From the NCBI RefSeq assembly GCF_900166655.1, contig NZ_FVZB01000004.1:26109-90108 (forward strand): a DNA stretch of 64,000 bases, written 5' to 3'. The DNA comes from Halobacillus hunanensis. GTDB taxonomy: Bacteria > Bacillota > Bacilli > Bacillales > Halobacillaceae. A program made the translations under genes and the position numbers. Each line of letters starts with the position of its first letter. Position 1 is the stretch's first letter. This document shows, piece by piece, positions 43,891-59,599 of the stretch. The notes beneath the pieces are model-generated. The model had not been told where the DNA came from, did not search any database, and worked only from the letters and a program-made list of their open reading frames with translations.

Positions 43891-44274
43891 ATGGACAAGA
43901 CGAATCATCGAGACGCATATTTTGATAATGCTAAGTTTTTACTTATCTTTTTGGTGGTTTTTGGACATGTCATTAGCCCTTTGAAACATGACAATCAACT
44001 GTTGTTTGCGCTTTATACGGCCATTTATCTATTCCATATGCCTGGGTTCGCTTTAATGTCAGGTTACTTTGCAAAGAAGTATCAACGAAAAGGGTACATC
44101 TTAAGCATCACTAAGAAGCTGTTACTACCTTATCTCTTATTTCAAGTCATTTATAGTGTTTATTATTATATGACTGGGAAGGAAACAACCCTAACTATTA
44201 ATTTATTTCAGCCTCACTGGACACTTTGGTTTCTATTAAGTTTGTTTTGTTGGCACCTTCTCTTATTTCTTGTA
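43891..44274 (+). pseudogene. 5' part of acyltransferase_3 gene, cut by transposon
   Basis: The gene begins 'MDKTNHRDAYFDNAKFLLIF' with 'FGHVISPLKHDN', the N-terminal signature of the fucose 4-O-acetylase-like acyltransferase_3 family (catalytic H of 'VFGHV'). It reads in frame to '...WHLLLFLV' at 44274, where the transposon starts; the apparent frame runs on into the insertion and stops at 44340. Its continuation is at 59600-60196. With the insertion and one TTGTA removed, the two parts join in frame to a 326-residue membrane acyltransferase. Confidence 0.88.
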
Positions 44275-44312
44275 GGGGTAGCGTCAGGAAAATGCGGATT
44301 TACAACGGTAAG
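44275..44312 (+). repeat. Left terminal inverted repeat of unit A
   Basis: 38 bp beginning GGGGTAGCGTCAGG and ending GGTAAG. It matches the repeat at 51416-51453 at 37 of 38 positions. Confidence 0.88.
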
Positions 44313-44313
44313 A

Positions 44314-44358
44314 AAAAGGCACCATTTCTCTTTTTTGTAGGATGAAATGGTGTCTTTT
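44314..44358. terminator. Hairpin at the left end of unit A
   Basis: AAAAGGCACCATTTC and GAAATGGTGTCTTTT, 15 bases with one mismatch. It would insulate the element from host transcription. Confidence 0.7.
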
Positions 44359-44599
44359 GTTATTTAAGAGATACCTGATGAACTTTTCAGTGTTTTTAAC
44401 CCAGTTGGTTCCTTAATAATCTCATCAAGTGTTATGGAGGAAAGAGGGTAGTTTAGGTAATGTAAGCCCTTTCAAATAAATGTAGTTTTTGTATTGCTAA
44501 ATTTTTGGAATTGGGCTACAATTCTCACTAGGAAATACTTTATTTGGAAACGATAGGTGACTAATACACTCATATACACAACATAGAAAGGATTTAAAA

Positions 44600-45805
44600 A
44601 TGAAGCTAATAAAAAATAAATCTTTTTCACTGTTATGGTTCGGTAACACCACCTCTGTATTTGGTAACTCAATCTATATGATAGGTGTTATGTGGTACAT
44701 AGTTCAATTAACTGGAAGTGGTTTTGCTTTAGGTTTAAGTGCCCTCTGTATTAGTTTACCTTCCTTTTTATTTATGATCTATGCGGGAAGACTGGCAGAT
44801 ACGAATAAAAAAAGAGAGATAATGGTTATCTCAGATTTTTTAAATGCTGTACTAATGCTTGTCATAGGAATACTGATTTCTAATAATACTACAGCTGTTC
44901 CCCTCTATATATTAATTTTTTTAAGCTCCACATTGAATGTATTTTTTAAACCAGCACTTTTAGCATCTATTCCTCTAATCGTAAGCAGAGACGATTTAAC
45001 ACAAGCAAATGCATCCGTTAACACTACAAACCAAATAGCAAATGTTTTAGGTCCGGCAGTTGGAGGGATACTAATAAGTCAATTTGACATAGCCTGGGTA
45101 TTTTATCTAAATGCAATTACTTTCTTCATTTCATCCGTTGCTGAATTATTTATAACTGTACGTCCTATCAAAGTGATCAAAGAAGGGGGGTACATAAAGT
45201 CATTTATAAATGGCCTTAACGTTCTTAAAAAAGATCCATCTTTATTAAGGCTGATTATCGTTGGTGGTTTTTTGATAAATTTGTTTCTAGCACCCACTTT
45301 TGCCTTTATAACTTACATTTGCGGGGAAGTCTTAGAAGTAGGAGCCAAGGGATTAGGTACAGCTGATTCTGTTTTAGCTTTAGGTGCTGTAATAGGAAGC
45401 TTAACAGTTATGTATTTTTCTAAATTTGACAAAAAAAAGCTAGCCATTTTGGGATTAGTCTTAGAAGGGGTAGCCCTTCTAATCGGAGGATTATGGGATA
45501 CATACTTGTCTCTACTTATTTGGTCAATGTTATTAGGGATAGGTTTAAGTTTTGCTGGAATTGGAATAAGCACTCTTACCCAACTCATTACTCCAGAAGA
45601 TTACCTAGGGAGGGTTAACAGCGTAAGTGGGGCATTCTCAGCAATATCTGTCCCTCTGGGAACTTTAGTCGGAGGCATAGTATTAGAGAACGTAAATATT
45701 TACCTCATTTTATTGATTTATGGAAGCTGCATCTTATTATCTTCTTTACTTTTTATTAACCTTAAGGAACAAAGTGAACAAAAGCAAGCTGTAAACATAT
45801 CATAA
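44600..45805 (+). CDS. MFS exporter of the RiPP operon
   Basis: The 401-residue protein has 12 predicted membrane segments and MFS motifs ('GRLADTNKKREIMVISD' between segments 2 and 3, 'PAVGGILISQFDIAW'). It looks like the drug-efflux/enterobactin-exporter-like branch found in antibiotic clusters. AAAGGA precedes the start. It is the first gene of the operon and ends 15 bases before the B12 radical SAM gene. It is the only transporter in the cluster, so export and self-protection of the peptide product are inferred. Confidence 0.88.
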   Translation: MKLIKNKSFSLLWFGNTTSVFGNSIYMIGVMWYIVQLTGSGFALGLSALCISLPSFLFMIYAGRLADTNKKREIMVISDFLNAVLMLVIGILISNNTTAVPLYILIFLSSTLNVFFKPALLASIPLIVSRDDLTQANASVNTTNQIANVLGPAVGGILISQFDIAWVFYLNAITFFISSVAELFITVRPIKVIKEGGYIKSFINGLNVLKKDPSLLRLIIVGGFLINLFLAPTFAFITYICGEVLEVGAKGLGTADSVLALGAVIGSLTVMYFSKFDKKKLAILGLVLEGVALLIGGLWDTYLSLLIWSMLLGIGLSFAGIGISTLTQLITPEDYLGRVNSVSGAFSAISVPLGTLVGGIVLENVNIYLILLIYGSCILLSSLLFINLKEQSEQKQAVNIS

Positions 45806-45820
45806 AATTGGAGGATTAAA

Positions 45821-48028
45821 ATGAAAACACTGTTTCTTTACCCCCCAATATTCGATCCGACTTCAGGTTATCATAGTTTAAGCTATTTAAAATCGTATAT
45901 TGAAGAACATAGGGATTACCACATAGACATCATTGATACAAATATTGAAGCAATAGATAAAACCTTTTCCAAAGATTACTATAATCGCCTTAAAACCCAT
46001 GTCTCTAATAGAATTAACGCCCTTAATAATAAAGAAGAACTTAATGGTCTTGAACAACATGAATTAAAGTACTTACTTTTGGGGAATGAATTTGAGTACG
46101 ATAATTTATGGGAAGCTGTATCAATTATGAGAAATGAAGAAATGTTTTATGACTACAATAAATATCGATATTCTGCCGAAACAATTAGTAATTGGATGAA
46201 GATTATATCCGTTTATGGTTTCCCAGGGCAGTTTGACGGCTTCAGCTTAACAACCCAAGGATACATTAACTTAAATAGCAGTAGTGATCTTAAGAATCGA
46301 GAATTAACAAGAAAAATTATGAAGCCTTTGGTAACATTTTTTGAAAAAGACTTATTTTATAAGATATATCAACAATCATATAATGCTATAGGTATTAATA
46401 TAACTTATAATTTTCAAACTCCATTCGCATTAGAGATAGCAAGAATGATAAAAGATCATTTTCCTAACTTACATATATTTTTTGGTGGAACAGAAGTTGC
46501 CGATATATGGAAGTATTCTCTTAATAAAAATACTTTTTTTGAAGTTTTTAATTGTGCTGACGCATGTGTAGTAGGAGAAGGAGAAATAGCTATCTTAGAA
46601 TTGCTAGATTGCGTGGAACACCAAAAGAGTTTCCATCCCCTCAAGAATGTAATATTCCACCCTAAACACAACATTCCATTAAAACATGAGATCCAATATA
46701 ACAAAATTAATAACATACCAACTCCGCAATACGGTGATTTGCCGTGGGATAAGTACCTCTCGCCGCATAATTTCATCTATTATTCTCCATCCAGAGGTTG
46801 CTACTGGAATAAATGCACTTTTTGTGACTACGGTCTAAACTCCGACTCCCCTACGAGTCCATGGAGACAAAATCCTATTGAAAAAACAGTAGAAGATTTA
46901 AGAGTTCTATCCCAAAACTATAAGTATATATATTTTTCTGTAGATGTACTTGCTCCTGCCATGCTCCTTAAATTAGCAGAAAAATTAATAAATGAGAGAA
47001 TAGATATTCGTTGGGGGGCCGAAATAAGATTAGAAGGATACTGGTCTGCGGAAAGGTGTGAGTTGTTAAAGGAAAGCGGTTGTACATGTATTTCCGTAGG
47101 TTATGAATCAGGGACACAAAGAGTCTTAGATTTAATTAATAAGGGAACTACTGTTGACAAAATAAAAGAAACGATTCAGAACTTTAACAATGCAAACATT
47201 GGTGTTCAAATGATGGGGTTCATAGATTTTCCTACCGAAACATTTGATGAAGCTATGGACACTTTTAGTTTCTTAGAAGAATCAAAAGAGGATTGGACAA
47301 TGATTGGCATAGGAGAGTTTTCTCTTACTCCTGGTGCCATAGTAGCTAAAGATCCTCAAAGATTTAAAATTAAAAATGTTAGGGGTTATAACAGAGAAGA
47401 TATCCCACGTTCTTTATATTATGAAGAAGAAACCACTTCAAAAACTGATAGGGAAAAGGCCATGATAGCTGATTATAGAGTTAAATTGACAAATGTGCAT
47501 TTTGGTAGACCTTGGATTGGTGGGATTGATACGCCTCATACAATGTTTTATCACGATAAATATGGGACAAGGATTGGTGACCAATTACTATCAGTGGAAA
47601 ATTACCACTCTCGTGAAGAGATTTATCATTTAAATGGTAGGATCGTTAACCTTGAATTACCTTTTGATATATCTGAATTATTTGACGATGATCAGCTCAC
47701 TAACCTTCATAACATTGCCAATGAAAATATTGAGGGTCTTACGTATAGAGAAATCATACAAAAGGTACAATCTGTGAATTTTGAGATAGATAATCGAAAC
47801 CTCCAAAAGCAGAGTTTTTTCATTAGAAGCAATGGTAAGGTCTACCCTTTTAGCGAGAAGATAAACGCATTCTTAGGTTCATTTTATCAGGGTAACACCC
47901 TAGAAATGGCCCTTACAGAATTTTCAATAGATGAGCACGAACAAGTAATATCATTATTCGATAAGTGTATTTCAAACTATCTTTTAAGAAAAGGATCAGA
48001 AGAAAAAATGGTATTAGGGGGTAAGTAA
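45821..48028 (+). CDS. B12-binding-domain radical SAM enzyme with CX4CX2C motif
   Basis: The 735-residue protein has an N-terminal cobalamin-binding-like Rossmann region (about residues 180-300, 'YNAIGINITYNFQTP', 'FFGGTEVADIW') and a radical SAM domain. The iron-sulfur motif reads 'SRGCYWNKCTFCDYGLNSD' with cysteines 327, 332 and 335, that is CX4CX2C and not the usual CX3CX2C. Further conserved parts are 'RWGAEIRLEGYWSAERCELL' and 'SVGYESGTQRVLDLINKGT'. A C-terminal 200-residue extension is of unknown role. Members of this class often methylate unactivated carbons of peptides. C-methylation or another radical change of the precursor is the likely job. Confidence 0.85.
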   Translation: MKTLFLYPPIFDPTSGYHSLSYLKSYIEEHRDYHIDIIDTNIEAIDKTFSKDYYNRLKTHVSNRINALNNKEELNGLEQHELKYLLLGNEFEYDNLWEAVSIMRNEEMFYDYNKYRYSAETISNWMKIISVYGFPGQFDGFSLTTQGYINLNSSSDLKNRELTRKIMKPLVTFFEKDLFYKIYQQSYNAIGINITYNFQTPFALEIARMIKDHFPNLHIFFGGTEVADIWKYSLNKNTFFEVFNCADACVVGEGEIAILELLDCVEHQKSFHPLKNVIFHPKHNIPLKHEIQYNKINNIPTPQYGDLPWDKYLSPHNFIYYSPSRGCYWNKCTFCDYGLNSDSPTSPWRQNPIEKTVEDLRVLSQNYKYIYFSVDVLAPAMLLKLAEKLINERIDIRWGAEIRLEGYWSAERCELLKESGCTCISVGYESGTQRVLDLINKGTTVDKIKETIQNFNNANIGVQMMGFIDFPTETFDEAMDTFSFLEESKEDWTMIGIGEFSLTPGAIVAKDPQRFKIKNVRGYNREDIPRSLYYEEETTSKTDREKAMIADYRVKLTNVHFGRPWIGGIDTPHTMFYHDKYGTRIGDQLLSVENYHSREEIYHLNGRIVNLELPFDISELFDDDQLTNLHNIANENIEGLTYREIIQKVQSVNFEIDNRNLQKQSFFIRSNGKVYPFSEKINAFLGSFYQGNTLEMALTEFSIDEHEQVISLFDKCISNYLLRKGSEEKMVLGGK

Positions 48029-48580
48029 TTGAAGAATGTTCTTTTAATTGGGACTGGTTCTATTGGTATCGTGAATTTGCCTAGTTTCATAATAGAGTTG
48101 AAGAAGTTAAATTTTAGCTGCAAATGTATTCTTACCCATAGTGCAGCAGAATTCGTTCCCGAAAAAACAATTGGTTACTTTGCGGACACGTTTACGGATG
48201 ATAAATCAATTGGTAGCACCTTTGCAAGAATACCTCATATTGCTTTAGGTAGTTGGGCAGACATTGTAATGGTTCTGCCGGCAAGTGCTAATACAATTAA
48301 TAAAATGGGATATGGAATAGCTGATAACTTGGCTACATTAACTGTTATCTCTACTAGAGCTCCCATCATTGTGTTCCCTAACATGGAAAAAACCATAGCT
48401 GACCAAGATATTGTGAAGGAAAGCATAGTTAAGCTTGAACAAAGAAATATACGGGTTATTCAAAATGTTAATGAGGGATACTCGACTTCTTCACAAAAAT
48501 TCGAAGAATCTTTGGTTCTTCCGACGTTTGAACAATTCAGGGTTATTTTAGAAACTGCAAAGGAGGAAACGATAGTATGA
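48029..48580 (+). CDS. LanD/EpiD-like flavoprotein cysteine decarboxylase (HFCD family)
   Basis: A TTG start follows directly after the stop of the radical SAM gene and has AGGGGG upstream. The 183-residue protein has the HFCD features: 'LLIGTGSIGIVNLPSFI' (flavin-binding start), the active-site histidine H70 in 'RIPHIALGSWAD', 'PASANT' at residues 84-89 followed by 'GIADNLATL', and 'FPNM' at 116-119 in place of the usual P-x-M-N loop. EpiD, MrsD and TvaF oxidatively decarboxylate a C-terminal cysteine to an ene-thiol. The precursor here ends in cysteine, as required. The alternative, a coenzyme A-pathway PPC decarboxylase, is unlikely in this setting. Confidence 0.85.
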   Translation: MKNVLLIGTGSIGIVNLPSFIIELKKLNFSCKCILTHSAAEFVPEKTIGYFADTFTDDKSIGSTFARIPHIALGSWADIVMVLPASANTINKMGYGIADNLATLTVISTRAPIIVFPNMEKTIADQDIVKESIVKLEQRNIRVIQNVNEGYSTSSQKFEESLVLPTFEQFRVILETAKEETIV

Positions 48581-49965
48581 ACTTGGGAAGTGGCGAAAAA
48601 ATTAATTTAAAAATGAACAAAGAGAGATCAGGCGGGAACAGAAAGTATAAGTGGTCAAAATATAACCTCACGGTTCCAACACACAAAAAAAACTTCTTGC
48701 TTTATAACACTGCTAACCAGAAAATGATGACTTCAGAGCAATCTTTTGAAAGAAGAGAAAATTATTATACTGATGGAGCCCCTTTAGCGAAAGGGGATGA
48801 CAAGTTAGTCGATTTGGGTTTTTTAGTGGAAGAGAGTATTGATGAATTTGCAAAACAAAGGTTTGATTATCAGCAACATCAAGGAGACCGATCCCAGCAA
48901 ATCATTGTAATGCCAACGGAACAATGTAATTTTAGATGCGTGTATTGCTACGAAGAATTCTTGAAAGGAACAATGGAACCAGAGTTACAAGAAGGATTAA
49001 TATCATGGGTTAAAGCAAATATATCTAATTGGGATAACCTTGCTATAAGTTGGTTTGGTGGTGAGCCACTAGTTGGGTATTCAGTAATTGAGAATGTATC
49101 CCCTCAGATTATAGAATTATGTAAAGAAAATAATGTTAAATATACAAGTGGAATGACCACTAATGGATTCCTTCTTAATATAGAAAAAGCAAAGAAGTTA
49201 TATGATATGGGTGTTAGAAGCTATCAAATAACTGTAGATGGTACGGAAGACTATCATGATCAAACAAGAGTCCTTATGGGAGGTCAAAAAACTTACAGTA
49301 AGATTATGAAAAACTTACTGGATATTAAAGATTCTGACCTTGACGTTTCAATTAAAGTAAGAATGAATTTTAGTAGTTTTAATACTGAAAACATTTCTGA
49401 CTTTCTTGATGAACTATCAAGTAATTTTAAGTCAGATCCAAGATTTACGTTTGATCTACAACCTGTAGGTCAATGGGGAGGACCCAATGATGAGGAACTT
49501 CCTATTTGCACTTCAAACCAAGCGAATCTAATTGAGATAGATAAGACTTGGGAAGGGATTGAAAAGGGGATACCGACAACTAAATTTTTAGATGCCCTTC
49601 GCCCTAATAATGTCTGTTACGCAGCTAAAGAAAATTCATTAGTAATCGGTTCGGATGGGATCATCTACAAATGTACCGTGGCATTTAATAACCCTATGAA
49701 TCATGTTGGTCAGTTACATCCGAATGGAGAAATTGAACTTGATATGTATAAATTTAGTCAATGGGTATCTTTAGATGGGGCAACTGATCCCCATTGTCAG
49801 TCATGTCAGGTTGCTCCTATATGCCACGGTTCTTTTTGTCCTTTGGTTAGAATTGAGCATGGTAAAGATACAAGACCTTGTCCCCCCTTAAAGTCAAATT
49901 TAGAAGCTTATGTGAAAAACTTATACAAACAGATCACATTTTCAAAGGAAGAAGTAAAACAATAA
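48577..49965 (+). CDS. SPASM-domain radical SAM peptide maturase
   Basis: The ATG overlaps the TGA of the decarboxylase gene (ATGA) and has AAAGGAGG upstream. The 462-residue protein has a RiPP-recognition-like N-terminus (residues 25-100, 'YNLTVPTHKKNFLLYNTANQ'), the radical SAM motif 'TEQCNFRCVYCYEE' with C117, C121 and C124 and the glycine-rich 'ISWFGGEPLVG'. The C-terminal SPASM region is rich in cysteines ('NVCYAAKENS', 'YKCTVAF', 'HCQSCQVAPICHGSFCP', 'RPCPPL'). Such enzymes make thioether or C-C crosslinks in peptides. The next gene, 32 bases on, is a likely substrate. Confidence 0.9.
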   Translation: MNLGSGEKINLKMNKERSGGNRKYKWSKYNLTVPTHKKNFLLYNTANQKMMTSEQSFERRENYYTDGAPLAKGDDKLVDLGFLVEESIDEFAKQRFDYQQHQGDRSQQIIVMPTEQCNFRCVYCYEEFLKGTMEPELQEGLISWVKANISNWDNLAISWFGGEPLVGYSVIENVSPQIIELCKENNVKYTSGMTTNGFLLNIEKAKKLYDMGVRSYQITVDGTEDYHDQTRVLMGGQKTYSKIMKNLLDIKDSDLDVSIKVRMNFSSFNTENISDFLDELSSNFKSDPRFTFDLQPVGQWGGPNDEELPICTSNQANLIEIDKTWEGIEKGIPTTKFLDALRPNNVCYAAKENSLVIGSDGIIYKCTVAFNNPMNHVGQLHPNGEIELDMYKFSQWVSLDGATDPHCQSCQVAPICHGSFCPLVRIEHGKDTRPCPPLKSNLEAYVKNLYKQITFSKEEVKQ

Positions 49966-49997
49966 AGTTCATAATTAACTTGAAAGGAGGTGATATT

Positions 49998-50126
49998 ATG
50001 GCAAATACTCCATTACTTGAAAATGAAACTGAAGGTATTGATTTTGCAGAATTTGAAGAGGTTGTAGAACTTAACCGAGATTATTCACTAGCTTCTGCAG
50101 CAGATACAAACAATTGTAACTGCTAA
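49998..50126 (+). CDS. RiPP precursor peptide (42 aa) ending in NNCNC
   Basis: The ATG is served by a nearly perfect AAAGGAGGTGAT site, as expected for a highly made peptide. The leader is acidic ('LENETEGIDFAEFEEVVEL'), contains no cysteine and leads to 'RDYSLASAADTNNCNC'. The only cysteines are 40 and 42, the last being the C-terminal residue. The leader has no double-glycine site. Position 32 bases after two radical SAM genes and a cysteine decarboxylase identifies it as the substrate. The likely core is the last six to ten residues. I know no characterised family with this end. Confidence 0.85.
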   Translation: MANTPLLENETEGIDFAEFEEVVELNRDYSLASAADTNNCNC

Positions 50127-50156
50127 TCTTATTTTGTTGAAAAGAGCAGTACTTAC

Positions 50157-50188
50157 AAAAGGCCAATCAAGTTTCGATTGGTCTTTTT
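50157..50188 (+). terminator. Terminator of the RiPP operon
   Basis: AAAAGGCCAATC and GATTGGTCTTTTT around AAGTTTC, right after the precursor gene. Confidence 0.8.
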
Positions 50189-50289
50189 AATTCGATGCTT
50201 TCACATTATAGTGACGATATAATTGAAAATTAATGGATAGTATTGTAAAATAAAATAGACTTGGTAGTAACAAGGGACTCTTAAGATCC

Positions 50290-50337
50290 CAAGGGATGTT
50301 CCTGGGTTTTAAATATAACCTGGGAACATCCTTTTTG
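50290..50337. terminator. Second hairpin between RiPP operon and resolvase
   Basis: AAGGGATGTTCCTGGGTT pairs with AACCTGGGAACATCCTTTTT. It separates the convergent resolvase gene. Between 50189 and 50468 no gene is seen. Confidence 0.7.
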
Positions 50338-50468
50338 TTTAGAGGAGGAAGGAAGAGTATAATCTCAATTATTGACCTCCCCGGTACTGATTGAAAAATC
50401 ACTCTCTTCCTTCTAGTAATTATTTTACATTATACCAGTCACCCCCTAAGAATCTTTATCCCCTTCCT

Positions 50469-51014
50469 TTAGCCTTCGGTAGAAAGCAGCTGCACTCCTC
50501 CTGTAATCATACATATCTCTTTAACAGTCTTATCAGAATTTTTACGAAGCTCAATTGCATGATTCATCCCCGGATGTTTATCAGTGTACTTTTTTATTCT
50601 TCCCCGATACTTTCCTTTTTGCTTTGCCGACTGAATCCCCGCACGTTGTTTCTCCTTAATCATTTCTCGATCAAGCTCACTAAAGGCCGCCATTACCGTT
50701 AAAAAGAATTTCCCAGTTGGAGTTCTAGTGTCAATCCCCAAATTTAGGATTACAAAGTCTACATCTCTTTCTTGAAGTTGTTCAACGAGCTGTAACATCT
50801 GAACTGTATTCCTTCCTAGGCGATCCATACGAGTTACAACTAAAGTGTCCCCTGTAGTGAGCTTAGAAAGGAGATCTTCCAATTGCTGCTTTTGTTTAGT
50901 TACCCCACTAATTTTCTCCTTGATAACTTCATCCACCCCATACGTGGTAAGTTGCTCTACCTGACTATCCAAATTTTGGTCTTGTGAACTTACTCGAGCA
51001 TACCCAAATATCAT
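50469..51014 (-). pseudogene. Unit A serine resolvase, frameshifted near its C-terminus
   Basis: The 181-residue frame has 'IFGYARVSSQDQNLDSQVEQ', 'VVTRMDRLGRNTVQML', 'FLTVMAAFSELDREMIKEKQ' and the usual tail up to 'VKEICMITGGV'. It then ends 'QLLSTEG'. In another frame the normal last helix appears as 'AAAFYRRLKEGDKDS', so one base was gained or lost near 50495-50502. The catalytic domain is intact but the helix-turn-helix that holds res is broken, so activity is doubtful. Confidence 0.8.
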
Positions 51015-51043
51015 TTTATCCCCTCGATTTTATATGTATTTTT

Positions 51044-51123
51044 GATAGGTGTTATTGAGAGACTATAAAGCTTATGATATCAAGGAGCCGACTTTCTATC
51101 AATAGGGTACACTCTATTGATAG
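51044..51123. promoter_or_regulatory. Candidate res site of unit A
   Basis: A perfect dyad CTATCAATAG-GGTACACT-CTATTGATAG is at 51096-51123, with a related TTTTGATAGGTGTTATTGAG at 51051-51070. It sits between the divergent resolvase and transposase-fragment genes, the usual place of res in Tn3-type elements. Confidence 0.65.
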
Positions 51124-51167
51124 AATCGTAAGAGTAAAGTGAATATTCTATGAAATGGGTGAACTAA

Positions 51168-51359
51168 ATGTCTATTGCTAGAGGGAGAGAATTGCTCACT
51201 AATGAACAACGGCAATCCTTTATACAGATTCCTGAGGACGAACTCGTAGTTGGAACCTACTACACATTCTCTAATTCGGATTTAGAACTGATTAACAAGC
51301 GTAGAAGGGATGAAAATAGACTGGGATTTGCAGTACAATTAGCTGTTCTCCGACCTTAA
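51168..51359 (+). pseudogene. N-terminal fragment of a Tn3-family transposase
   Basis: The 63 codons read 'LLTNEQRQSFIQIPEDELVV' and 'NKRRRDENRLGFAVQLAVLR', matching the first 60 residues of Tn3-type TnpA, and are similar to, but clearly distinct from, TnpA of unit B. A stop follows, and the right end of the unit is only 57 bases on. About 920 codons have been lost, so unit A cannot move itself. Confidence 0.85.
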
Positions 51360-51415
51360 GGCCATTAAAACTCCCTTAACGTTGTTAAAAATAGGATAGC
51401 ATTCGGGAAAATGCG

Positions 51416-51453
51416 CTTAACGTTGTAAATCCGCATTTTCCTGACGCTACCCC
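51416..51453 (-). repeat. Right terminal inverted repeat of unit A
   Basis: Inverted copy of 44275-44312 (37 of 38). The five bases outside are TTACT, unlike TTGTA at the other end. Confidence 0.88.
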
Positions 51454-51506
51454 TTACTCAGGGGTTATCGGTTTAGAGGTAATAAATCTGTTTAATACCG
51501 ATATGT

Positions 51507-51552
51507 CACTAGAGAATGATATGAAACTTTCATTCTCTAGTGTCGTTTTTTA
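51507..51552. terminator. Strong terminator in the middle segment
   Basis: CACTAGAGAATG and CATTCTCTAGTG form a 12-bp stem; TCGTTTTTTAA follows on the plus strand. Confidence 0.75.
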
Positions 51553-51574
51553 ATTGCTTAGTTGACGAACTTTT

Positions 51575-51724
51575 TTATTTGTTTCTTCGTATTTCCATAA
51601 TAAGCTCTTCTACAACTTGCTCCAGTTGATTAAAATTTCTTTCCAATCGCATGAGTAAATAAAACGTAACGACAATAGGAAATCCTAAATTGCCTATCAA
51701 AGAGATCCAATAATTTGGTTCCAT
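51575..51724 (-). CDS. YvrJ-like small membrane protein (49 aa)
   Basis: The ATG at 51724 follows AAGGTGAG. The peptide starts 'MEPNYWISLIGNLGFPIVVT' with one membrane helix to about residue 25 and a charged tail ('QLEQVVEELIMEIRRNK'). This matches the YvrJ family (related to BhlA/UviB holin-like peptides) of Bacilli. It stands alone in the segment between units A and B. Function is not established. Confidence 0.7.
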   Translation of the reverse strand: MEPNYWISLIGNLGFPIVVTFYLLMRLERNFNQLEQVVEELIMEIRRNK

Positions 51725-51784
51725 ACAAATCACTCACCTTCCATGTCTACTCCTTTTTTACTTAAAATCCCCATTCAAATATAG

Positions 51785-51855
51785 AGGTAGTACTCGGATT
51801 TGAACCGAGGATGAAGGTTTTGCAGACCTTTGCCTTACCACTTGGCTATACTACC
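51785..51855 (-). tRNA. tRNA-Cys (anticodon GCA)
   Basis: On the minus strand the 71-nt sequence folds into a cloverleaf. The acceptor stem is GGTAGTA/TACTACC, the anticodon loop CTGCAAA contains GCA, the T arm is CTCGGTTCAAATCCGAG, and the discriminator base is T (U73), a Cys identity base. CCA is not encoded. It lies within the transposon, between the two Tn3 units, 140 bases from the subtilase gene. Confidence 0.92.
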
Positions 51856-51995
51856 ACAACTTCTAAAGCAATTATTATTCTTCTTACTATTTAAAGAGTA
51901 TCTTGCTAACAAATATAAACACGAAATGAAAAAAATTTGGAGTTAAATAATAACTTTGAAGTTACTCTTTAAATGGATAAAGGGGGAAATAATTA

Positions 51996-52883
51996 ATGAG
52001 CACCAAAATACTTGAGATTAGGGAAAGAATAGAACAAGGTAAAAACATCCCGAAAGGTTTAAAATTACTTAATGTAGAAAGTTTATGGGAGAAATCTGAT
52101 CAGGGAAAAGGGAATGTAATAGCTGTTATTGATTCGGGGTGTGATAGAAATCACCCTGATTTAAAAGATAACATTATTGGAGGGTATAATTTCACAGGTG
52201 AAGGGGAACACCATGACTTTTCAGATAGCAATTTCCATGGGACTCATATTGCAGGAACCATTGCGGCTAACAATATAAAATCCGGAATTATTGGAGTATC
52301 CCCGCAATCTAAATTATTAATTCTCAAGGTAATTGATAAAAGAAACTCAGGTACTTACACTTCATTAGTTAACGCCATTAATTACGCTATAAAATGGAAA
52401 GGGCCAAAAGGGGAAAAGGTATCAGCTATGAATATATCTTTAAGTGGCCATTACGATGATGATAATCTCTATAAATCAATTGTTAACGCAACAAAAAGAA
52501 ATATTCCAATAATTGCGGCATCCGGAAATAGTGGAGATTCAAAAAGGTTATATCCTGCTTCTTTTAAGGAAGTACTACAGGTTGGTTCGGTTAATGAGTC
52601 ACTAAAATTAAATAGTTTTTCAAACAAAAACGGACGAAGTTTATTTCTAGCTCCGGGTAGTAATATTCTTTCGACATTTCCCAACAGTCTCTATGGTAAA
52701 ATAACCGGAACTTCAATGGCAGCACCGCATATAACAGGAGCTGTTTCTTTAATCATAGATATAATGAAGAAAGAGAAAGTACCAGTGAAACTAGAAACCG
52801 TGTTAAGGCAATTAACTAAATACTCCATCCCTTTAAGTGAACACATGGATGGTGAAGACATCAGATTAGTTCAATTTAATTAG
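51996..52883 (+). CDS. Intracellular subtilisin-like serine protease (S8)
   Basis: The 295-residue protein starts after AAAGGGGG and has no signal peptide. The catalytic triad is D in 'VIAVIDSGCDRNHPDLK', H in 'SNFHGTHIAGTIAAN' and S in 'ITGTSMAAPHITGAVSLI', with the oxyanion Asn in 'PIIAASGNSGDS'. A short N-terminal extension with 'GKNIPKGLKLLNVESLWEKS' resembles the pro-region of the ISP family (B. subtilis IspA), which inhibits until cleaved. It stays in the cytoplasm. It lies in the same transposon as the RiPP operon and could process the precursor leader, but this is only an inference. Confidence 0.9.
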   Translation: MSTKILEIRERIEQGKNIPKGLKLLNVESLWEKSDQGKGNVIAVIDSGCDRNHPDLKDNIIGGYNFTGEGEHHDFSDSNFHGTHIAGTIAANNIKSGIIGVSPQSKLLILKVIDKRNSGTYTSLVNAINYAIKWKGPKGEKVSAMNISLSGHYDDDNLYKSIVNATKRNIPIIAASGNSGDSKRLYPASFKEVLQVGSVNESLKLNSFSNKNGRSLFLAPGSNILSTFPNSLYGKITGTSMAAPHITGAVSLIIDIMKKEKVPVKLETVLRQLTKYSIPLSEHMDGEDIRLVQFN

Positions 52884-52895
52884 GGAAATTTAATT

Positions 52896-52934
52896 GGGGT
52901 AGTACCAACATTTTAACGGAAAACTCACGCTAAG
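52896..52934 (+). repeat. Left terminal inverted repeat of unit B
   Basis: 39 bp beginning GGGGTAGTACCAACATTTTA and ending CACGCTAAG, identical in reverse to 59556-59594. The end CACGCTAAG is like Tn4430. Five bases outside: TAATT. Confidence 0.92.
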
Positions 52935-52993
52935 ACAGTTTTTACCATAAAAAAGCCGGAATTCTTTACGCTAACGAATTCCGGGGGACTGTT

Positions 52994-55930
52994 TCAGATA
53001 TTTAATGGTCTTAATGTATTCGCTTTGGTCAAATTTTTTAAATCAAATGAATATTCTCCTAGGAAATTAATATGTTCCCACCCTAATGGTGAAACATGTC
53101 CAATTAACTCTTCTTTTAAAACACCCTTTTCCCTCATGACCTTTATTGCTTCTGTAAGATATACCGTGTTCCAAACACTTATTGCGTTTATTAAAATGTT
53201 TAATGCACTATTTCGTTGCAGTTGATCTTGTAATGCACGTTCACGCAATTCTCCTCTTTTTCCAAAGAATAATGCTCTGGCTAAAGCATTCATGGCTTCA
53301 CCCTTATTCAATCCTCGCTGAATTCTTCGACGTATTGCTTCATTTGAAATGTAATCTAAGATAAAAATAGTTTTTTCGATTCTCCCCATCTCTCGGAGGG
53401 CCGTTGCAAGGTTGTTCTGTCTCGAATAGGAACCTAGTTTACCTAAAATAAGTGCAGCAGAAACTTTACCTTGACCAACAGATTGTCCCATACGTAACAC
53501 ATCAGCGTAATTTTCTTGAATGACCTTAGTATTAATGCGACCTTTTAATAACGACTCAAGCTTTGGAAATTCATTTGGCTTCCCCATAATATGTAACCGC
53601 GTGTCCGTCAAGTCCCGAAGGCGAGGAGCAAATCGAAAGCCCAAAAGGTGACATAGACCAAACACTTGGTCTGTATACCCAGCTGTATCCGTGTAATGTT
53701 CTTCAATGTTAAGTTCAGATTCATGATGCAGCAGTCCATCGACTACATGAAGTGCATCGCGGGAATTCGTGTTTACGACATTTCCACTAAAGGTTGAAAA
53801 TTGGTCACTTGTAAAACGGTAAAAGGTCGTTCCTTTCCCATGACCGTAGTGGGGATTTGCATCAGCGTAAAGGGAAGGAACTCCTACTTGGACGCGCATA
53901 CCATCTGATGAGGAGGTAGTCCCATCTCCCCAGTAAGATGGCAATAAAAGTTGGTGATGAAAATCAACGAGTGCAGCCTGCGCCTTATTCATAGCATCAT
54001 CATGCATTCTCCATTGAGCGATATTGGCCATTTGATGGTAAGAAATTTTAGGAGTAGCATCGGCCATTTTGGTTAGTCCAATGTTAGTTCCCATACCCAT
54101 GAGTGTTGCCATGAGGATGGATTTCTCATTGCCCTTTGGCGGGTGACCAGAAGATGCGTGGAGAAAGGCTTCATCAAAACCCGTCCAGCTCGCAACCTCT
54201 AAAAGAAGATCGGTTAGTTTGATCTTTGGAAGCATCTTATATAAAGACAAACTAAAGGATTTTGCTTCTTCCGGAGTGTTTTTTTCTAAACGATCAATAT
54301 GAAGTTTCCCTTTTCCAATATTTACTCCTTCTAATTCATGAACATGGTTCGATACCCAGTTCAGGCGTTCAGTAAGTGTTTGTGTTCTTTCACTTATGAA
54401 TTGATCAACTGAAGGACTAACCGCAAGTTTACTATTTTGTAAATCAATCTTCTTCCATTCATCCTTTGAAATTAAATATTCATCAAAGTTTTTATATTGG
54501 CGGCTACCAGTTACGGAGACATCTCCTGATCGAATATGATTACGAAGTTCTGTCAACGCGGCCATTTCATAATAGCGACGGTTAATGGACCCATCCTCAT
54601 CATATACATGTTTTTGCCATCGATTAGAAATAAAATCGAGGGGAGCATCTTCTGGAACTCTTCTCTTTCCAGATTGATTCATTGTACGGATCGTATCTAT
54701 GGCCTCCATCAAGGGTTCTGCTGATTGATTTGATTGAAAATCTAAGGCATTTAATAAAGTGGGTGTATATTTTCGTAAGTATGAGAAACGATTTTCAAGT
54801 AAATCCAAGTAATCATAATCAACGGGCCGTGATAATTTTCTGGCTTCTTCCACAGAAGAAATAATATTCTCCCACGGCATAACTGTTTCCAACGTTTCAA
54901 ATGGATCAAGCCCTTCATCTCGTGCTTTAATTAACGCAGCGCCCAGATCAGCAAAATGAATGACCTTTTCATTGATGGATTTCCCGTGTTGCTTTTGAAG
55001 CTCTTCCTGGGCTTTTCGGCCTTTGGATTGTAGAACCATGATTTGACGATCATGAATTTCAATGGCTTGGTCAATTAATTCTTGGCTTAGATATAGGAGG
55101 TATGCGACAAGGATGGCATAACGTTTTGATTCCTTAAATCGTCGAAATGAATGAGGCTCATATCTTGCTCCCATACGGGATAGTTGGAGTAGGCGGTTAG
55201 GATGGATTTCTTTAGTATTAGAAGAAAGATTGATCTCCCGAACATACTCCAAGCGTTTAATAGCATCCAAAAAGGCGTCTGGAGAGGATTGCCCAGGTTT
55301 TTCTCTTAACCATGACAGAGGTGTTCTTCTCTGTTCATCAGAAGGTTCTGTTAATGTATCAAGCTGTTGTTTTTGGTTTGAAGTCAGAGATTCTGTTAAT
55401 CGTTGGTAAACTTTCTTCTCCGCCCTTCGCCGGATTTCCCATACCAACCTTTCAACAGTTGTCATAGCTGGTAGAATGATTTTTTGCTTTCTCATTTCAT
55501 CGATAGCTATCTTAATTAAATGGAGGGATTGATTGTTTTCCATGGCAAAAGGGAGCAAATAACGTGATAACTGTCGGTAGTTGCTCATTGAAAAGAAAGT
55601 ATATCCATAAAACTTTCTGATTTCTTCCAAATGTTCATACTTGGTTTGTTCCCGTCCTGCATAATATTGAAATTCCTGTGCGTTCACATGGATTTGGTCT
55701 GCAATATAGTTTAAAACAGCATTTGGAATAGGGTTCGCATCAGATAAGGTCCAGCCCGGAAAGCGCAGAAGGCAAAGTTGAATAGCGAATCCTAAACGAT
55801 TATGATCCCTTCTGCGACGTTTAATAAGATTAATGTCTTGTGGAGAAAGGGTATAGTAACTCGCTAATTCCCACTTACTAATATCGGATGGGATTTTCAT
55901 AAACTGTATCCTTTGTTCTGATGTTAACAA
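52994..55930 (-). CDS. tnpA: Tn4430-like Tn3-family transposase
   Basis: The 978-residue protein is full length for the family (Tn4430 TnpA about 987). It has the DNA-binding N-terminus ('MLTSEQRIQFMKIPSDISKW') and the DDE domain: first D in 'WGDGTTSSSDGMRVQVGVPS', second D in 'HYTDTAGYTDQVFGLCHLLG', and E in 'FFGKRGELRERALQDQLQRN'. It would cut and join the 39-bp ends in replicative transposition. It lies just inside the left repeat of unit B and downstream of tnpI. It is the only complete transposase in the window and could also serve unit A in trans. Confidence 0.95.
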   Translation of the reverse strand: MLTSEQRIQFMKIPSDISKWELASYYTLSPQDINLIKRRRRDHNRLGFAIQLCLLRFPGWTLSDANPIPNAVLNYIADQIHVNAQEFQYYAGREQTKYEHLEEIRKFYGYTFFSMSNYRQLSRYLLPFAMENNQSLHLIKIAIDEMRKQKIILPAMTTVERLVWEIRRRAEKKVYQRLTESLTSNQKQQLDTLTEPSDEQRRTPLSWLREKPGQSSPDAFLDAIKRLEYVREINLSSNTKEIHPNRLLQLSRMGARYEPHSFRRFKESKRYAILVAYLLYLSQELIDQAIEIHDRQIMVLQSKGRKAQEELQKQHGKSINEKVIHFADLGAALIKARDEGLDPFETLETVMPWENIISSVEEARKLSRPVDYDYLDLLENRFSYLRKYTPTLLNALDFQSNQSAEPLMEAIDTIRTMNQSGKRRVPEDAPLDFISNRWQKHVYDEDGSINRRYYEMAALTELRNHIRSGDVSVTGSRQYKNFDEYLISKDEWKKIDLQNSKLAVSPSVDQFISERTQTLTERLNWVSNHVHELEGVNIGKGKLHIDRLEKNTPEEAKSFSLSLYKMLPKIKLTDLLLEVASWTGFDEAFLHASSGHPPKGNEKSILMATLMGMGTNIGLTKMADATPKISYHQMANIAQWRMHDDAMNKAQAALVDFHHQLLLPSYWGDGTTSSSDGMRVQVGVPSLYADANPHYGHGKGTTFYRFTSDQFSTFSGNVVNTNSRDALHVVDGLLHHESELNIEEHYTDTAGYTDQVFGLCHLLGFRFAPRLRDLTDTRLHIMGKPNEFPKLESLLKGRINTKVIQENYADVLRMGQSVGQGKVSAALILGKLGSYSRQNNLATALREMGRIEKTIFILDYISNEAIRRRIQRGLNKGEAMNALARALFFGKRGELRERALQDQLQRNSALNILINAISVWNTVYLTEAIKVMREKGVLKEELIGHVSPLGWEHINFLGEYSFDLKNLTKANTLRPLNI

Positions 55931-55977
55931 TTCCTCTTTCCCTTAAATACAAAAGTATTACTCCTCTCTCTTATTTA

Positions 55978-56817
55978 TTAACCGGAGGAATTAATGTAGA
56001 TATTTTCCACAGCTTTTTCTTTATCCTGGGCGGTGGGCTGACTGTAACGGAGGACCATGTCAGCCGATTGATGACCGGACAATGACTGAATGACAGAAAT
56101 GTCTTCACCCGCACGTACAAGACCTGTGATAAACGTATGACGTAAAGCATGAGGGTGGACTTTGTACTTTCCAAGAACGGTTTGAACACTTCGAATACTG
56201 ATTCGTTTCACCCGGCTTGATAAAAATAAGGCTGGTTGATTGTCGCCCCTTTGATCAAGATAATCTGTAAGCGCACGACGCACCTCCACGTTTAAGGGGA
56301 TAATTCTCTCCCGATTACCTTTTCCAATAACCCGGACCTCACCTTTTCGTTCACTTTTCTGAATATCATCTCTGTTGAGGGAAACGAGTTCCCGGACCCG
56401 TACTCCTGTATAAAGAAGCATAAGGATAATAGCGTAGTCGCGTTTGTTACCGTCACGATCTACTTCACGAACTAATCGATTTCGCTCAATGCGATCTAAT
56501 CCCTTAGGAGCTTGCTTTTTAAGGTCAGCCATTTTAACAACACGTATATCCTGAACAGCTTTGGCATTGCCTGTCCATCTTGCAAAAGGTTTAATGGCAT
56601 TCCAAATTTTATTAACAGTTGCGGCACTTTTCCGTTTAGCCGTCAGATAATCAATGTACTGTTGCACATCAGATCTTGAAAAATCTTCTAAGTTTGTGCC
56701 CGTTCCTTCTAACCAATGGTTAAATTGCTCTAATGCATGTATATATGTGTCACAAGTTGATTCTGACTTCCCCTTTAAACCTTCTTCTCTGAACACTTCT
56801 AATACTGATTTCGTCAT
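55978..56817 (-). CDS. tnpI: TnpI-like tyrosine recombinase
   Basis: I start at the ATG at 56817, which follows AAAGGGGAG; this gives 279 residues, close to the 284 of Tn4430 TnpI. An N-terminal SAM-like core-binding domain ('TCDTYIHALEQFNHWLEGTG') is followed by the catalytic domain: R in 'LLYTGVRVRELVSLNRDDI', K in 'VRVIGKGNRERIIPL', H-x-x-R in 'VHPHALRHTFITGLVRAG', and 'LSGHQSADMVLRYSQPT' with the Tyr nucleophile. It resolves cointegrates at the internal resolution site just upstream. It is 47 bases before tnpA on the same strand. Confidence 0.93.
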   Translation of the reverse strand: MTKSVLEVFREEGLKGKSESTCDTYIHALEQFNHWLEGTGTNLEDFSRSDVQQYIDYLTAKRKSAATVNKIWNAIKPFARWTGNAKAVQDIRVVKMADLKKQAPKGLDRIERNRLVREVDRDGNKRDYAIILMLLYTGVRVRELVSLNRDDIQKSERKGEVRVIGKGNRERIIPLNVEVRRALTDYLDQRGDNQPALFLSSRVKRISIRSVQTVLGKYKVHPHALRHTFITGLVRAGEDISVIQSLSGHQSADMVLRYSQPTAQDKEKAVENIYINSSG

Positions 56818-56928
56818 TGGACTCCCCTTTAATACACCATCACATAATTCTACGCTAAAATTTCCGGCCATTAATCTTTGATTATACACCGGTAACACAT
56901 GATTGATTCGTTTCGACTTTAGCTCATT

Positions 56929-56969
56929 TTATCATAGAATTATTGTTCTATGTCATAATTCTATGATAA
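56929..56969. promoter_or_regulatory. TnpI internal resolution site (core)
   Basis: Perfect 15-base inverted arms TTATCATAGAATTAT (56929-56943) and ATAATTCTATGATAA (56955-56969) enclose TGTTCTATGTC, about 110 bases upstream of tnpI. The layout is that of the IR1-IR2 recombination core in Tn4430. Confidence 0.75.
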
Positions 56970-57102
56970 GTATATAAAAAATCCGATACTTCTATTTTGG
57001 AACAGACATATCAAATCGTGATACATAATTATAATTTTTTTGGATAGGCTTGTACTAAGGCTTCATAAAGATAAGACTAGGAAAAAGGATGGTGCATCAT
57101 TA

Positions 57103-57567
57103 ATGAAGCGTTTACTTACAACAGTTATTGTTCTTCTATGTTTATTCACTGGGGTCGCGTTTGCTTCTGCTCAATCTCAAAACTCTAATAACCACGATTC
57201 AAAAGGAACGGAACAAGCAACAGATCAACTTATGCTGAAGCTTTTTAATGAACATATTGACAAAGCAGTCGCCAATTATTATAAGGATGACTCAATAAGT
57301 TTTCAGTATAACTGGTGGGATGAAGGTTATGATGTCGTTGAAGTAGATCAGAGTGAAAAAGGTCATGTCCTAAAGAGTCCATATGAGGTGACATTTACTG
57401 TTGAACCTATCAAAACAAAACATGACAAACAAACGAATACTACAACCCTCGGTCCAAAATTAGGGGGGACAGATAAAATAACCTTCGGTGTGGTACCGGG
57501 AGACGTAGCAAAAGGAATTAAAGTAAAAATGTTAAATTATGAGCATCATGACTCAAACGAAAACTAA
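57103..57567 (+). CDS. DUF3888-like secreted protein (154 aa)
   Basis: I use the ATG at 57103, where a signal peptide begins ('MKRLLTTVIVLLCLFTGVAF', then 'ASAQSQ' as cleavage region). The mature part contains 'QLMLKLFNEHIDKAVANYYK' and 'VLKSPYEVTFTVEPIKTKHD', which fits the DUF3888 family of Bacillaceae exported proteins. It is the first passenger of unit B and ends at a terminator (57597-57637). Function unknown. Confidence 0.7.
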   Translation: MKRLLTTVIVLLCLFTGVAFASAQSQNSNNHDSKGTEQATDQLMLKLFNEHIDKAVANYYKDDSISFQYNWWDEGYDVVEVDQSEKGHVLKSPYEVTFTVEPIKTKHDKQTNTTTLGPKLGGTDKITFGVVPGDVAKGIKVKMLNYEHHDSNEN

Positions 57568-57596
57568 ATTAAAGATACTATGTACATTAAACTGTA

Positions 57597-57637
57597 ACCC
57601 GAGAAAGGCTAAAACATAGAGCCTTTCTCGGGTTTTT
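57597..57637 (+). terminator. Terminator after the DUF3888-like gene
   Basis: AACCCGAGAAAGGCT and AGCCTTTCTCGGGTT, 15-bp arms (with a short extension), followed by TTTG. Confidence 0.8.
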
Positions 57638-57793
57638 GTTACTCTTAACGCTGAAACACCTAACAAATACCCTAATACAATGGGTTTATACAGAGTGCAA
57701 AAACAATTCGAAATTCTTATGACGATTGAGTCCAAGAAAGGTTTTCAGTATAATTTGGGTATAAAATACAGTTTGGGAAGAAAGGGGTAATGA

Positions 57794-58423
57794 ATGAAAA
57801 AATATCTATTGTTAGTCATCCCAATTTTCTTTTACAGAGAACTTTTTAGATATTTTAATTTAGAGGCACTGATTAATTTAATAATTGTTATGATTTGCTT
57901 GACCTTTCTTTTTAAACGCACAGCTCTTAGAAATGTTCTTGATTTGTTCATTGCGATTTGTTTCACAATATATTTTTGTATATTGTACTCGAAGACTGTT
58001 GAACTGAAAGGGATCGTTATAGGGTTTTCTCATAGTTTTTCTTTTGAAAACGCAAAAAATGTTTTTGATACAGTTAACTTAATTCCCATCAAGGGCATTT
58101 TTGAAGTAATTACACAAAATATTTCAAATCTAAATGTTTTGTATCAGGTATTTGGAAACACAATCATGCTTGCCCCTTTTGCATTTGCTTTACTCTATTT
58201 TGAATGGACTAAAAGTTATAAGCAGGCGATTTGGTATACTTTGCTTTGTACAGTGGGTATTGAATTTATACAATTCGTATTAAGTTTATATTATAGTGTG
58301 TTTGAAATTGGTTTGAGAAGAAGCATAGATATTGACGATGTAATTTTAAACACTATAGGCGCTGGTATAGGAATAGGGGGTTACTACCTTTGGTCAATAA
58401 TAGAGACTCAATTTAAAAGATGA
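57794..58423 (+). CDS. VanZ-family membrane protein
   Basis: The 209-residue protein has five or more membrane segments and the VanZ pattern: 'VNLIPIKGIFEVITQNISNL', 'GNTIMLAPFAFALLYF', 'GIEFIQFVLSLY' and 'RSIDIDDVILNTIGAGIGIG'. VanZ proteins raise tolerance to glycopeptides, mainly teicoplanin, in some hosts; here the role is unknown. Second passenger of unit B. Confidence 0.85.
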   Translation: MKKYLLLVIPIFFYRELFRYFNLEALINLIIVMICLTFLFKRTALRNVLDLFIAICFTIYFCILYSKTVELKGIVIGFSHSFSFENAKNVFDTVNLIPIKGIFEVITQNISNLNVLYQVFGNTIMLAPFAFALLYFEWTKSYKQAIWYTLLCTVGIEFIQFVLSLYYSVFEIGLRRSIDIDDVILNTIGAGIGIGGYYLWSIIETQFKR

Positions 58424-58446
58424 ATGTCTGATATTCCTGTTTCTAT

Positions 58447-58490
58447 AAAAAGATGCCCCTCCACTTATTTGTGGAAGAGCATCTTTTTAT
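58447..58490. terminator. Bidirectional terminator after vanZ-like gene
   Basis: AAAAGATGC...GCATCTTTTT with an inner CCTCCAC...GTGGAAG stem. Confidence 0.7.
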
Positions 58491-58498
58491 AGAAGGGA

Positions 58499-59071: not shown

Positions 59072-59123
59072 CGATTACTCTCCTCCCTGATTTTAAAAGT
59101 TACCTATGTAGATTCTTGATGTA

Positions 59124-59362
59124 GGGGTCCAGACAGCAAAACGCGGTAAACGTACGTTAAGAGTTGTGTTGCATTAGTTTTTCTTATATTTTAATTAAAT
59201 TGTGTTGCGTAAAAGGGATAAATAATGCTTTTACAACTATCTAATACAACACAATTATATTTATGTTGTATAGAGCGAACAAAACTCAAGACATAGAAAA
59301 AGCCTAAGCGATAAGGTTTTTATCCTTAGCGTACGCTATCCGCGTTTTGCTGGCGGTACCCC
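59124..59362. mobile_element. 239-bp Tn3-derived miniature element (TIME) with ATGTA duplication
   Basis: 38-bp ends GGGGTCCAGACAGC... (59124-59161) and, inverted, GGGGTACCGCCAGC... (59325-59362) match at about 31 of 38 positions, both ending in ACG(T/C)TAAG. ATGTA is present at 59119-59123 and again at 59363-59367. There is no coding sequence. The interior has TnpI-site-like words (AATTGTGTTG at about 59202-59211 and CAACACAATT at about 59252-59261). Confidence 0.82.
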
Positions 59363-59555
59363 ATGTAGAAAAGAACCCCCCTCCCATTTTTTGGTATATA
59401 ACTTAACTTCGACATTAAATTGTCATTGTCCTGCAAATAAATTGAAATAATCTTAATATTTAGTTTACTTTTTGTCATAATATACAGATCAATTTGGTAA
59501 TAAACATCATAACGAATCCAAAGTCCAAATCATAGAATTAAATGGTAAAAACTGT

Positions 59556-59594
59556 CTTAGCGTGAGTTTTCCGTTAAAATGTTGGTACTACCCC
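59556..59594 (-). repeat. Right terminal inverted repeat of unit B
   Basis: Exact inverted copy of 52896-52934. Followed by TTGTA, the duplication shared with the left end of unit A. Confidence 0.92.
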
Positions 59595-59599
59595 TTGTA

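Follow-up and report, generated by a model that had tools for sequence, protein, structure and literature searches.

Which product could come from an operon that encodes a cobalamin-type radical S-adenosylmethionine (SAM) enzyme (B12 enzyme), a LanD/EpiD-like flavin cysteine decarboxylase, a SPASM radical SAM maturase and a short peptide ending in cysteine? Such an operon, with an MFS exporter as its first gene, is found in a 64,000-nucleotide stretch of Halobacillus hunanensis (RefSeq assembly GCF_900166655.1, contig NZ_FVZB01000004.1, positions 26,109 to 90,108), referred to here as the window. We propose that, in this operon without a dehydratase, LanD decarboxylates Cys42 of the peptide and the SPASM enzyme ties the sulfur of this residue to Asn39, giving an aminovinyl thioether ring, a reading whose chances we place a little below even. 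Somewhat more tentatively, we propose a new class of ribosomally synthesized and post-translationally modified peptides (RiPPs), in which a LanD-made ene-thiol would be joined radically to the unactivated beta-carbon of an Asn (motif NxxC), resulting in a terminus similar to aminovinylcysteine (AviCys) but without dehydrated Ser or Thr, and in which the B12 enzyme would methylate the same tail in the window and in two related loci, L019 and L020. The genes and their families, the conserved residues, and the statistical ties between LanD and a C-terminal Cys, between SPASM peptides and NxxC and between the B12 enzyme and Asn-rich tails are direct observations. The operon comprises the following features (window positions):

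44600 to 45805, forward strand: MFS exporter, 401 amino acids (PF07690, MFS_1, 1.6e-37)
45821 to 48028, forward strand: cobalamin-type radical SAM enzyme (B12 enzyme), 735 amino acids (PF04055, 9.5e-16; PF02310, 1.3e-6, under cut-off)
48029 to 48580, forward strand: LanD/EpiD-like flavin cysteine decarboxylase, 183 amino acids, TTG start (Pfam Flavoprotein, 1.3e-23)
48577 to 49965, forward strand: SPASM radical SAM maturase, 462 amino acids (Radical_SAM, 1.3e-17)
49998 to 50126, forward strand: precursor peptide, 42 amino acids, C-terminal ...AADTNNCNC (open reading frame, ORF, with AAAGGAGGTGAT Shine-Dalgarno)
50106 to 50123, forward strand: predicted core tail TNNCNC with predicted ring Asn39-x-x-Cys42 (from NxxC enrichment among related peptides)

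The coordinates and the gaps of 15, 0, -4 and 32 bases agree exactly with the tight five-gene operon described in an earlier note on this DNA, and the MFS, B12 radical SAM, EpiD/LanD-like and SPASM families named there are upheld by Pfam, sequence and structure matches, as is the 42-residue peptide with the ending TNNCNC and Cys as its last residue. A purine-rich stretch lies directly upstream of all five starts, the strongest being the AAAGGAGGTGAT of the peptide gene; promoter and terminator counts are at chance level. The precursor matched no Pfam or NCBIfam family. It is 42% identical to the peptide of locus L086, which was also recovered as a protein, and a profile built from these two precursors matched only the same two. 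In every NCBIfam match listed, the four operon enzymes score under the curated cut-offs. A Pfam scan found neither a lanthionine dehydratase nor a YcaO gene among the operon genes, as the note had stated. A YcaO search of the whole genome gave no match, the same search being positive in 5 of 14 control genomes; a whole-genome LanB search, with class V type dehydratases outside its scope, was empty as well but does not show absence, since none of the 14 controls responded. The MFS, B12, LanD and SPASM genes co-occur in two further loci, L019 and L020, and this recurrence speaks against a chance neighbourhood. Moreover, MFS genes share the stretch with the B12 gene in all 15 B12 loci read wide, the window's own excluded.

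How often LanD accompanies the SPASM enzyme was seen with a SPASM profile (A1) built from four SPASM proteins. In the organism's own class, 25 of 398 genomes had a total of 29 matching places, all of which were read wide; in Paenibacillaceae, the profile found 40 places in 38 of 394 genomes, and 25 of these 40 were read wide. With five places common to both searches, and with L023 and L024 added, this led to 51 distinct SPASM loci, read over 8 to 21 kb and in some cases ended by contig ends. LanD shares the stretch with SPASM in 8 of the 51, namely in 6 of the 29 own-class places (the window, L019, L020, L085, L087 and L088) and in 2 of the 25 wide-read Paenibacillaceae places (L009, which appears again as L136, and L140). 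LanD, SPASM and the B12 enzyme occur together in three loci (the window, L019 and L020); L019 and L020 contain a TldD/PmbA-type gene pair besides LanD. The search for co-encoding clusters that the earlier note put forward thus showed that the set recurs and that this operon has counterparts elsewhere. A scan of genome contigs with the single SPASM sequence returned one locus only, L009. The plasmid search with SPASM gave seven records outside the 51 loci, of which six were read (all except that of Methylomagnum), and the LanD profile found no match in the stretches read around these six plasmid-borne relatives. On a Deinococcus plasmid (L047), the SPASM relative lies near annotated lantibiotic dehydratase genes. 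The plasmid search with LanD gave 57 records; among the 20 listed, three were read, two of the matches lying in lantibiotic clusters and one beside unrelated genes.

Candidate peptides were defined as same-strand ORFs near the SPASM gene that have a Shine-Dalgarno sequence and encode a Cys within the 8 to 12 C-terminal residues, and those of the window, L009, L019, L020, L024, L086 and L138 were added from other readings of their loci; the 28 of 51 loci without an assignable peptide were excluded from the peptide statistics. The terminal residue is Cys in all eight peptides with LanD versus 4 of the 15 assigned without it (p = 0.001 in a Fisher test, which takes the loci as unrelated), and the difference holds once near-copies are removed (7 of 7 versus 4 of 13, p 0.004). 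Mapping the presence of LanD onto a maximum-likelihood tree of 30 SPASM proteins takes four changes, of which supported branches force at least three. The same pattern is seen between sisters: the window (LanD, ...CNC) contrasts with L086 (SPASM 59% identical, LanB instead of LanD, ...CGCG), and L009 (LanD, SKTINIFC) with the LanD-free L137 (NVVCF), L138 (NVQCGG) and L139 (NVQCG). The L019 peptide has the tail TNNNVIC. A six-core precursor is encoded in L020 (7371-7694), with six repeats TVPTQNTNNNVC and Asn at -3 of each Cys, so that each unit would end in Cys after cutting.

The flavoprotein has MrsD (E 6.9e-19) and EpiD (E 8.8e-19) as its best solved relatives by sequence. It carries His70, PASANT at 84-89 and PNM at 117-119, the latter two of which we take to be the EpiD motifs so named; His70, Pro84, Pro117 and Asn118 are shared by all 9 sequences of the alignment, that of the window among them. 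Against the CypD-type peptide-cysteine decarboxylase model NF033753 it scores 26 bits (cut-off 215). A LanD-type decarboxylase and a C-terminal Cys, as in AviCys-type systems, are thus both present in the operon. The flavoproteins of L140, L009, L085, L020 and L088 match PF02441, that of L140 matching MrsD and EpiD with the top score going to another flavoprotein (7cfu). In L087 (8981-10861), L088 (9270-10997) and L140 (10657-12501), a subtilase domain fused to a DUF1611 P-loop domain precedes LanD.

A second regularity concerns the position of Asn. Considering the last 12 residues of 23 peptides, Asn stands at -3 of 25 of 41 Cys, compared with a mean of 9.2 when Cys were kept fixed and the other residues shuffled, and none of 10,000 shuffles reached this value. 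The result is similar without near-copies (21 of 36 Cys, 0 of 10,000 shuffles). The spacings -1, -2, -4, -5 and -6 are much weaker, the next being -1 (102 of 10,000). NxxC is found in 19 of the 23 peptides, and it is the terminal Cys itself that has Asn at -3 in six of the eight LanD peptides. The motif has a precedent in NxxcA, where a C-beta thioether formed by NxxcB joins Cys23 to Asn20 (PMC8326336); the Asn C-beta-S bond of NxxcB is also reported in PMC13361665.

The SPASM protein has CX3CX2C, the usual radical SAM cluster motif, at residues 117/121/124 and seven more Cys at 347/366/407/410/416/421/435, which are taken as auxiliary-cluster ligands. All ten are invariant across the 26 sequences aligned, that of the window among them. 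By sequence and by fold, its nearest solved structure is CteB, which is also the best structural match of the model (mean predicted local distance difference test score, pLDDT, 86.6) in an entry titled for thioether bond formation. Two traits of ranthipeptides were therefore found, a SPASM radical SAM maturase whose auxiliary-cluster Cys are conserved and a donor (Cys42) at the fixed spacing from Asn (-3) that is enriched over the 23 peptides. At the same time, the protein is under the curated cut-off in all 25 of 71 NCBIfam matches listed, so its chemistry is not readable from family; the best-scoring relatives are the TIGR04463 (216.1 versus 525 bits), Clo7bot and CefB maturases, all under cut-off. 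Its closest relative (59% identical) is encoded in the Tumebacillus-type locus L086 (4407-9030), where neighbouring genes encode a complete LanB dehydratase and a peptide with the ending TINNCGCG; the locus may specify a hybrid of lanthipeptide and ranthipeptide.

From these genes we infer the chemistry of the operon throughout, as follows. Oxidative decarboxylation of Cys42 by the flavoprotein would yield an ene-thiol. EpiD-type enzymes require both the thiol and the C terminus of the Cys to be free, so decarboxylation would precede ring closure, and the internal units of L020 would need cutting before LanD acts. The SPASM enzyme would then bind the leader and the ene-thiol sulfur, abstract the beta-hydrogen of Asn39 and form the Asn C-beta-S bond, a step modelled on NxxcB, which acts on an ordinary Cys. 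In the least certain step, the B12 enzyme would C-methylate at least one Asn in the TNN part of the tail. C-methylation of Asn is its most likely role by analogy with known methylases, including MgmA, which acts on Gln. Finally, a protease from outside the operon would remove the leader and the MFS protein would export the product. The idea of the earlier note, radical chemistry acting on the ene-thiol, is strengthened by the tie of LanD to C-terminal Cys and by NxxC and stays an idea about mechanism. Its expected mass change of -46 Da needs correction: with the ene-thiol sulfur joined to Asn, the computed change is -48.02 and not -46.01, or -50.04 if Cys40 is linked too, with +14.02 per methyl.

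The B12 enzyme belongs to the three-enzyme set in few of its loci. It carries a CX4CX2C cluster motif within RGCYWNKCTFC (residues 325-335), the three motif Cys being present in each of the 24 sequences aligned, the window's among them, and its B12-binding domain match (28.7 bits) is under the Pfam cut-off of 32.1. The model (mean pLDDT 86.6) has structural matches to TsrM, OxsB, AprD4, TokK, MgmA and CysS. These are mostly cobalamin radical SAM enzymes, with AprD4, which is not known to use cobalamin, also present; MgmA is a glutamine methylase by its title, and PoyC is reportedly another cobalamin radical SAM C-methylase. A cobalamin-binding fold and a radical SAM cluster motif, as in the superfamily, are thus both found, and the enzyme is under cut-off in all 24 NCBIfam matches, including the RiPP C-methyltransferase model TIGR03975 (86.4 versus 281.85 bits). 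With homologues accepted up to E 1e-60, it was found in 7 of 398 genomes of its own class (own genome included), in 5 of 7 genomes of one Tumebacillus-type family, which overlap with the former, and in 10 of 394 Paenibacillaceae genomes. Among 333 genomes of its own order, only its own was recovered; since homologues in Cytobacillus and Caldibacillus appear among the best 120 of 978 protein matches, such genome samples can miss carriers. These best 120 include Bacillota and Actinomycetota, among others. The search of viral contigs with the B12 enzyme gave no match, and one Sinorhizobium meliloti plasmid carries a homologue of 32.5% identity.

Seventeen B12 loci were read wide, window included, and of these four have LanD and three SPASM. 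The remaining 13 (L017, L018, L021, L022 and L036-L044) have neither. In all 13, a short gene without Cys in the last 12 residues of its product adjoins the B12 gene and an MFS match is present in the stretch. NN is found in 12 of these 13 tails (e.g., TNNININ, ENNVNNIH, DDTNNNNNNN), the exception being L043 (SNIVIIQ). The Paenibacillus B12 sequences are close kin and the counts are not independent. The B12 enzyme and MFS exporter with Cys-free, mostly Asn-rich tails are therefore likely a separate RiPP family. Because the B12 enzyme is without either partner in 13 of 17 loci, the view of B12, LanD and SPASM as one indivisible system was dropped. The B12 loci with LanD are the window, L019, L020 and L045, whose assigned peptides end in NNCNC, NNNVIC, NNNVC and GGQNC, respectively. 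L045 (7062-11470, on Sinorhizobium meliloti pAK76) encodes a LanD-like flavoprotein, the B12 enzyme and a 2OG-Fe(II) oxygenase, with no SPASM gene in the stretch; its peptide candidate is an unannotated 72-residue ORF ending PGGQNC between the B12 and oxygenase genes.

The operon lies within a transposon-type unit, made up as follows:

44275 to 44312, forward strand: left 38-bp Tn3-type terminal inverted repeat (GGGGTAGCGTCAGG...), paired with the right repeat
50469 to 51014, reverse strand: serine resolvase of the transposon-type unit (PF00239, 4e-43)
51168 to 51359, forward strand: Tn3-family transposase remnant, N-terminal 63 amino acids (PF13700, 3.2e-16; NF033527, 8.7e-10)
51416 to 51453, reverse strand: right inverted repeat, paired with the left repeat, the far end of the 7.18-kb unit that encloses the operon

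The arms at 44274-44312 and 51416-51454 are 97% complementary, and the first 23 bases of the left repeat have just two occurrences in the window against 0.00 expected. The 5-bp repeat TTGTA at 44270-44274 and 59595-59599 flanks an insertion of 15.3 kb (44275-59594), which splits an acyltransferase gene into an N-terminal half at 43891-44274 and a C-terminal half from 59600; when the flanks are joined, an acyltransferase frame of 326 residues is regained. Given the repeats, the resolvase, the TTGTA duplication and the restored frame, the operon probably arrived by transposition. The two outer ends of the insertion differ in their Tn3-type sequence, and the left one pairs with a third end at 51453, which makes this a case of nested or fused elements. 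Among plasmids, even the best record matches no more than 5% of the 7.18-kb unit. The insertion also contains a tRNA-Cys (GCA) gene at 51784-51855 on the reverse strand, at a distance of 1.7 kb from the gene for the Cys-ending peptide; at Rfam gathering scores, this tRNA was the only hit in the window.

Several observations weigh against a ring made by LanD and SPASM on one Cys. The LanD and SPASM genes are about 0.2 kb apart or less in five of the eight loci but 2.4 to 3.6 kb apart, with other genes between, in L087, L088 and L140, and in L019 and L020 the peptide gene is beside the B12 gene and at least 4 kb from SPASM. The last Cys lacks Asn at -3 in L085 (CHIC) and L140 (SGNC), where NxxC is at an earlier Cys, and the first Cys of the window peptide (C40) has Thr at -3. 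The peptides of L090, L091, L094 and L107 end in Cys with no LanD in the stretch, so the presence of a C-terminal Cys does not by itself imply LanD. On the enzyme side, the PNMxxxM stretch of the window LanD contains Ile at a position that is Met in the eight other sequences of the alignment, and among NCBIfam models the enzyme scores best against CoaBC (100 bits, below the cut-off of 219.7). As to the sample, the peptides were chosen by eye in 23 of 51 loci, one per locus where several exist, the Fisher test ignores kinship, and the GGQNC peptide of L045 is our own pick, an annotated small gene upstream of the flavoprotein having no terminal Cys. The Tumebacillus-type loci L090, L091 and L094 have peptides of 21-23 residues ending NNCNC, NTNCNC and NNNNCNC(G), with L091 carrying two and L094 three copies.

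It is conceivable, if rather unlikely, that the two enzymes use different Cys, the thioether coming from an earlier one and the last, decarboxylated Cys staying a free ene-thiol that could serve as a reactive group or metal ligand, or adding non-enzymatically. The first-Cys position of NxxC in L085 and L140 and the two Cys of the window peptide would suit this, whereas the Asn at -3 of the last Cys in six of eight LanD peptides does not, and L009, L019 and L020 hold one Cys per core unit, so both enzymes, if acting on it, share it. We also regard it as improbable that SPASM makes another bond, either an alpha-carbon sactionine or a non-sulfur change, and that LanD independently trims and protects the C terminus. 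The NCBIfam scores under cut-off leave room for such a bond, but the nearest solved fold is CteB, and the NxxC enrichment points to Asn as the partner. The CxC endings and Asn-rich tails would also fit a peptide binding copper or zinc through its thiols and the ene-thiol, with radical enzymes that only methylate; NxxC spacing and the type of the SPASM enzyme favour a crosslink instead, none of the five operon genes resembles a metal transporter or regulator, and we hold such a product to be quite unlikely. Least credible, and very improbable in our view, is a decayed transposon passenger with no product: the adjacent Tn3 transposase is a 63-residue remnant and two related loci have a broken B12 gene (interrupted in L022, split in L044), yet the operon itself has five open frames, conserved cluster Cys and a strong Shine-Dalgarno sequence at the peptide gene.

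Each enzyme type in the proposed LanD-SPASM ring system is already known. The closest parallel is the NxxcA/NxxcB ranthipeptide of Streptococcus orisratti, which shares a SPASM-type enzyme and Asn-x-x-Cys; the Asn C-beta-S bond is reported there and predicted here, and in the parts of PMC8326336 and PMC13361665 drawn on, no LanD or B12 enzyme is mentioned, whereas the Cys in the LanD loci is the last residue. In AviCys and aminovinylmethylcysteine (AviMeCys) peptides (epidermin, mersacidin, class V lanthipeptides, thioamitides and kintamdin), a LanD-type ene-thiol from a C-terminal Cys likewise closes a thioether ring but adds to dehydrated Ser or Thr (PMC9415263, PMC12291118, PMC7794033); unlike those systems, this operon has no dehydratase or kinase-fold cyclase. 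Freyrasin/PapB and CteB ranthipeptides share the SPASM maturase, CteB being its nearest solved fold. Their acceptors are Asp and Thr, with no LanD mentioned in the part of PMC11002830 available, and the window SPASM protein scores 108.5 against a PapB cut-off of 340. The TIGR04463, Clo7bot and CefB maturases are its best NCBIfam relatives, yet below cut-off. Cobalamin radical SAM C-methylases (TIGR03975, MgmA) are alike in having a cobalamin fold in a radical SAM enzyme, and in the structural matches; they differ in that the window enzyme is under cut-off and goes with Asn-rich peptide tails. In the open-access literature (subscription papers not covered), we found no description of LanD and SPASM acting on one peptide, nor of this B12 clade. 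The claim that no characterised class has this combination therefore stands within that literature and only there, where neither the combination nor its rule is described.

The single-Cys L009 and L019, the six-core L020 and the LanD-free sister systems are ready controls for a testable question raised by this locus, namely whether an ene-thiol can serve as the sulfur donor of a SPASM enzyme. For an uncharacterised cobalamin radical SAM clade, an Asn-tailed precursor family is now defined. If the proposal is true, a few residues would be remodelled by three redox enzymes, two peptide chemistries known only apart (decarboxylation of a terminal Cys by a flavoenzyme and radical thioether formation at Asn) would come together, and AviCys-like rings would have a dehydratase-free route.

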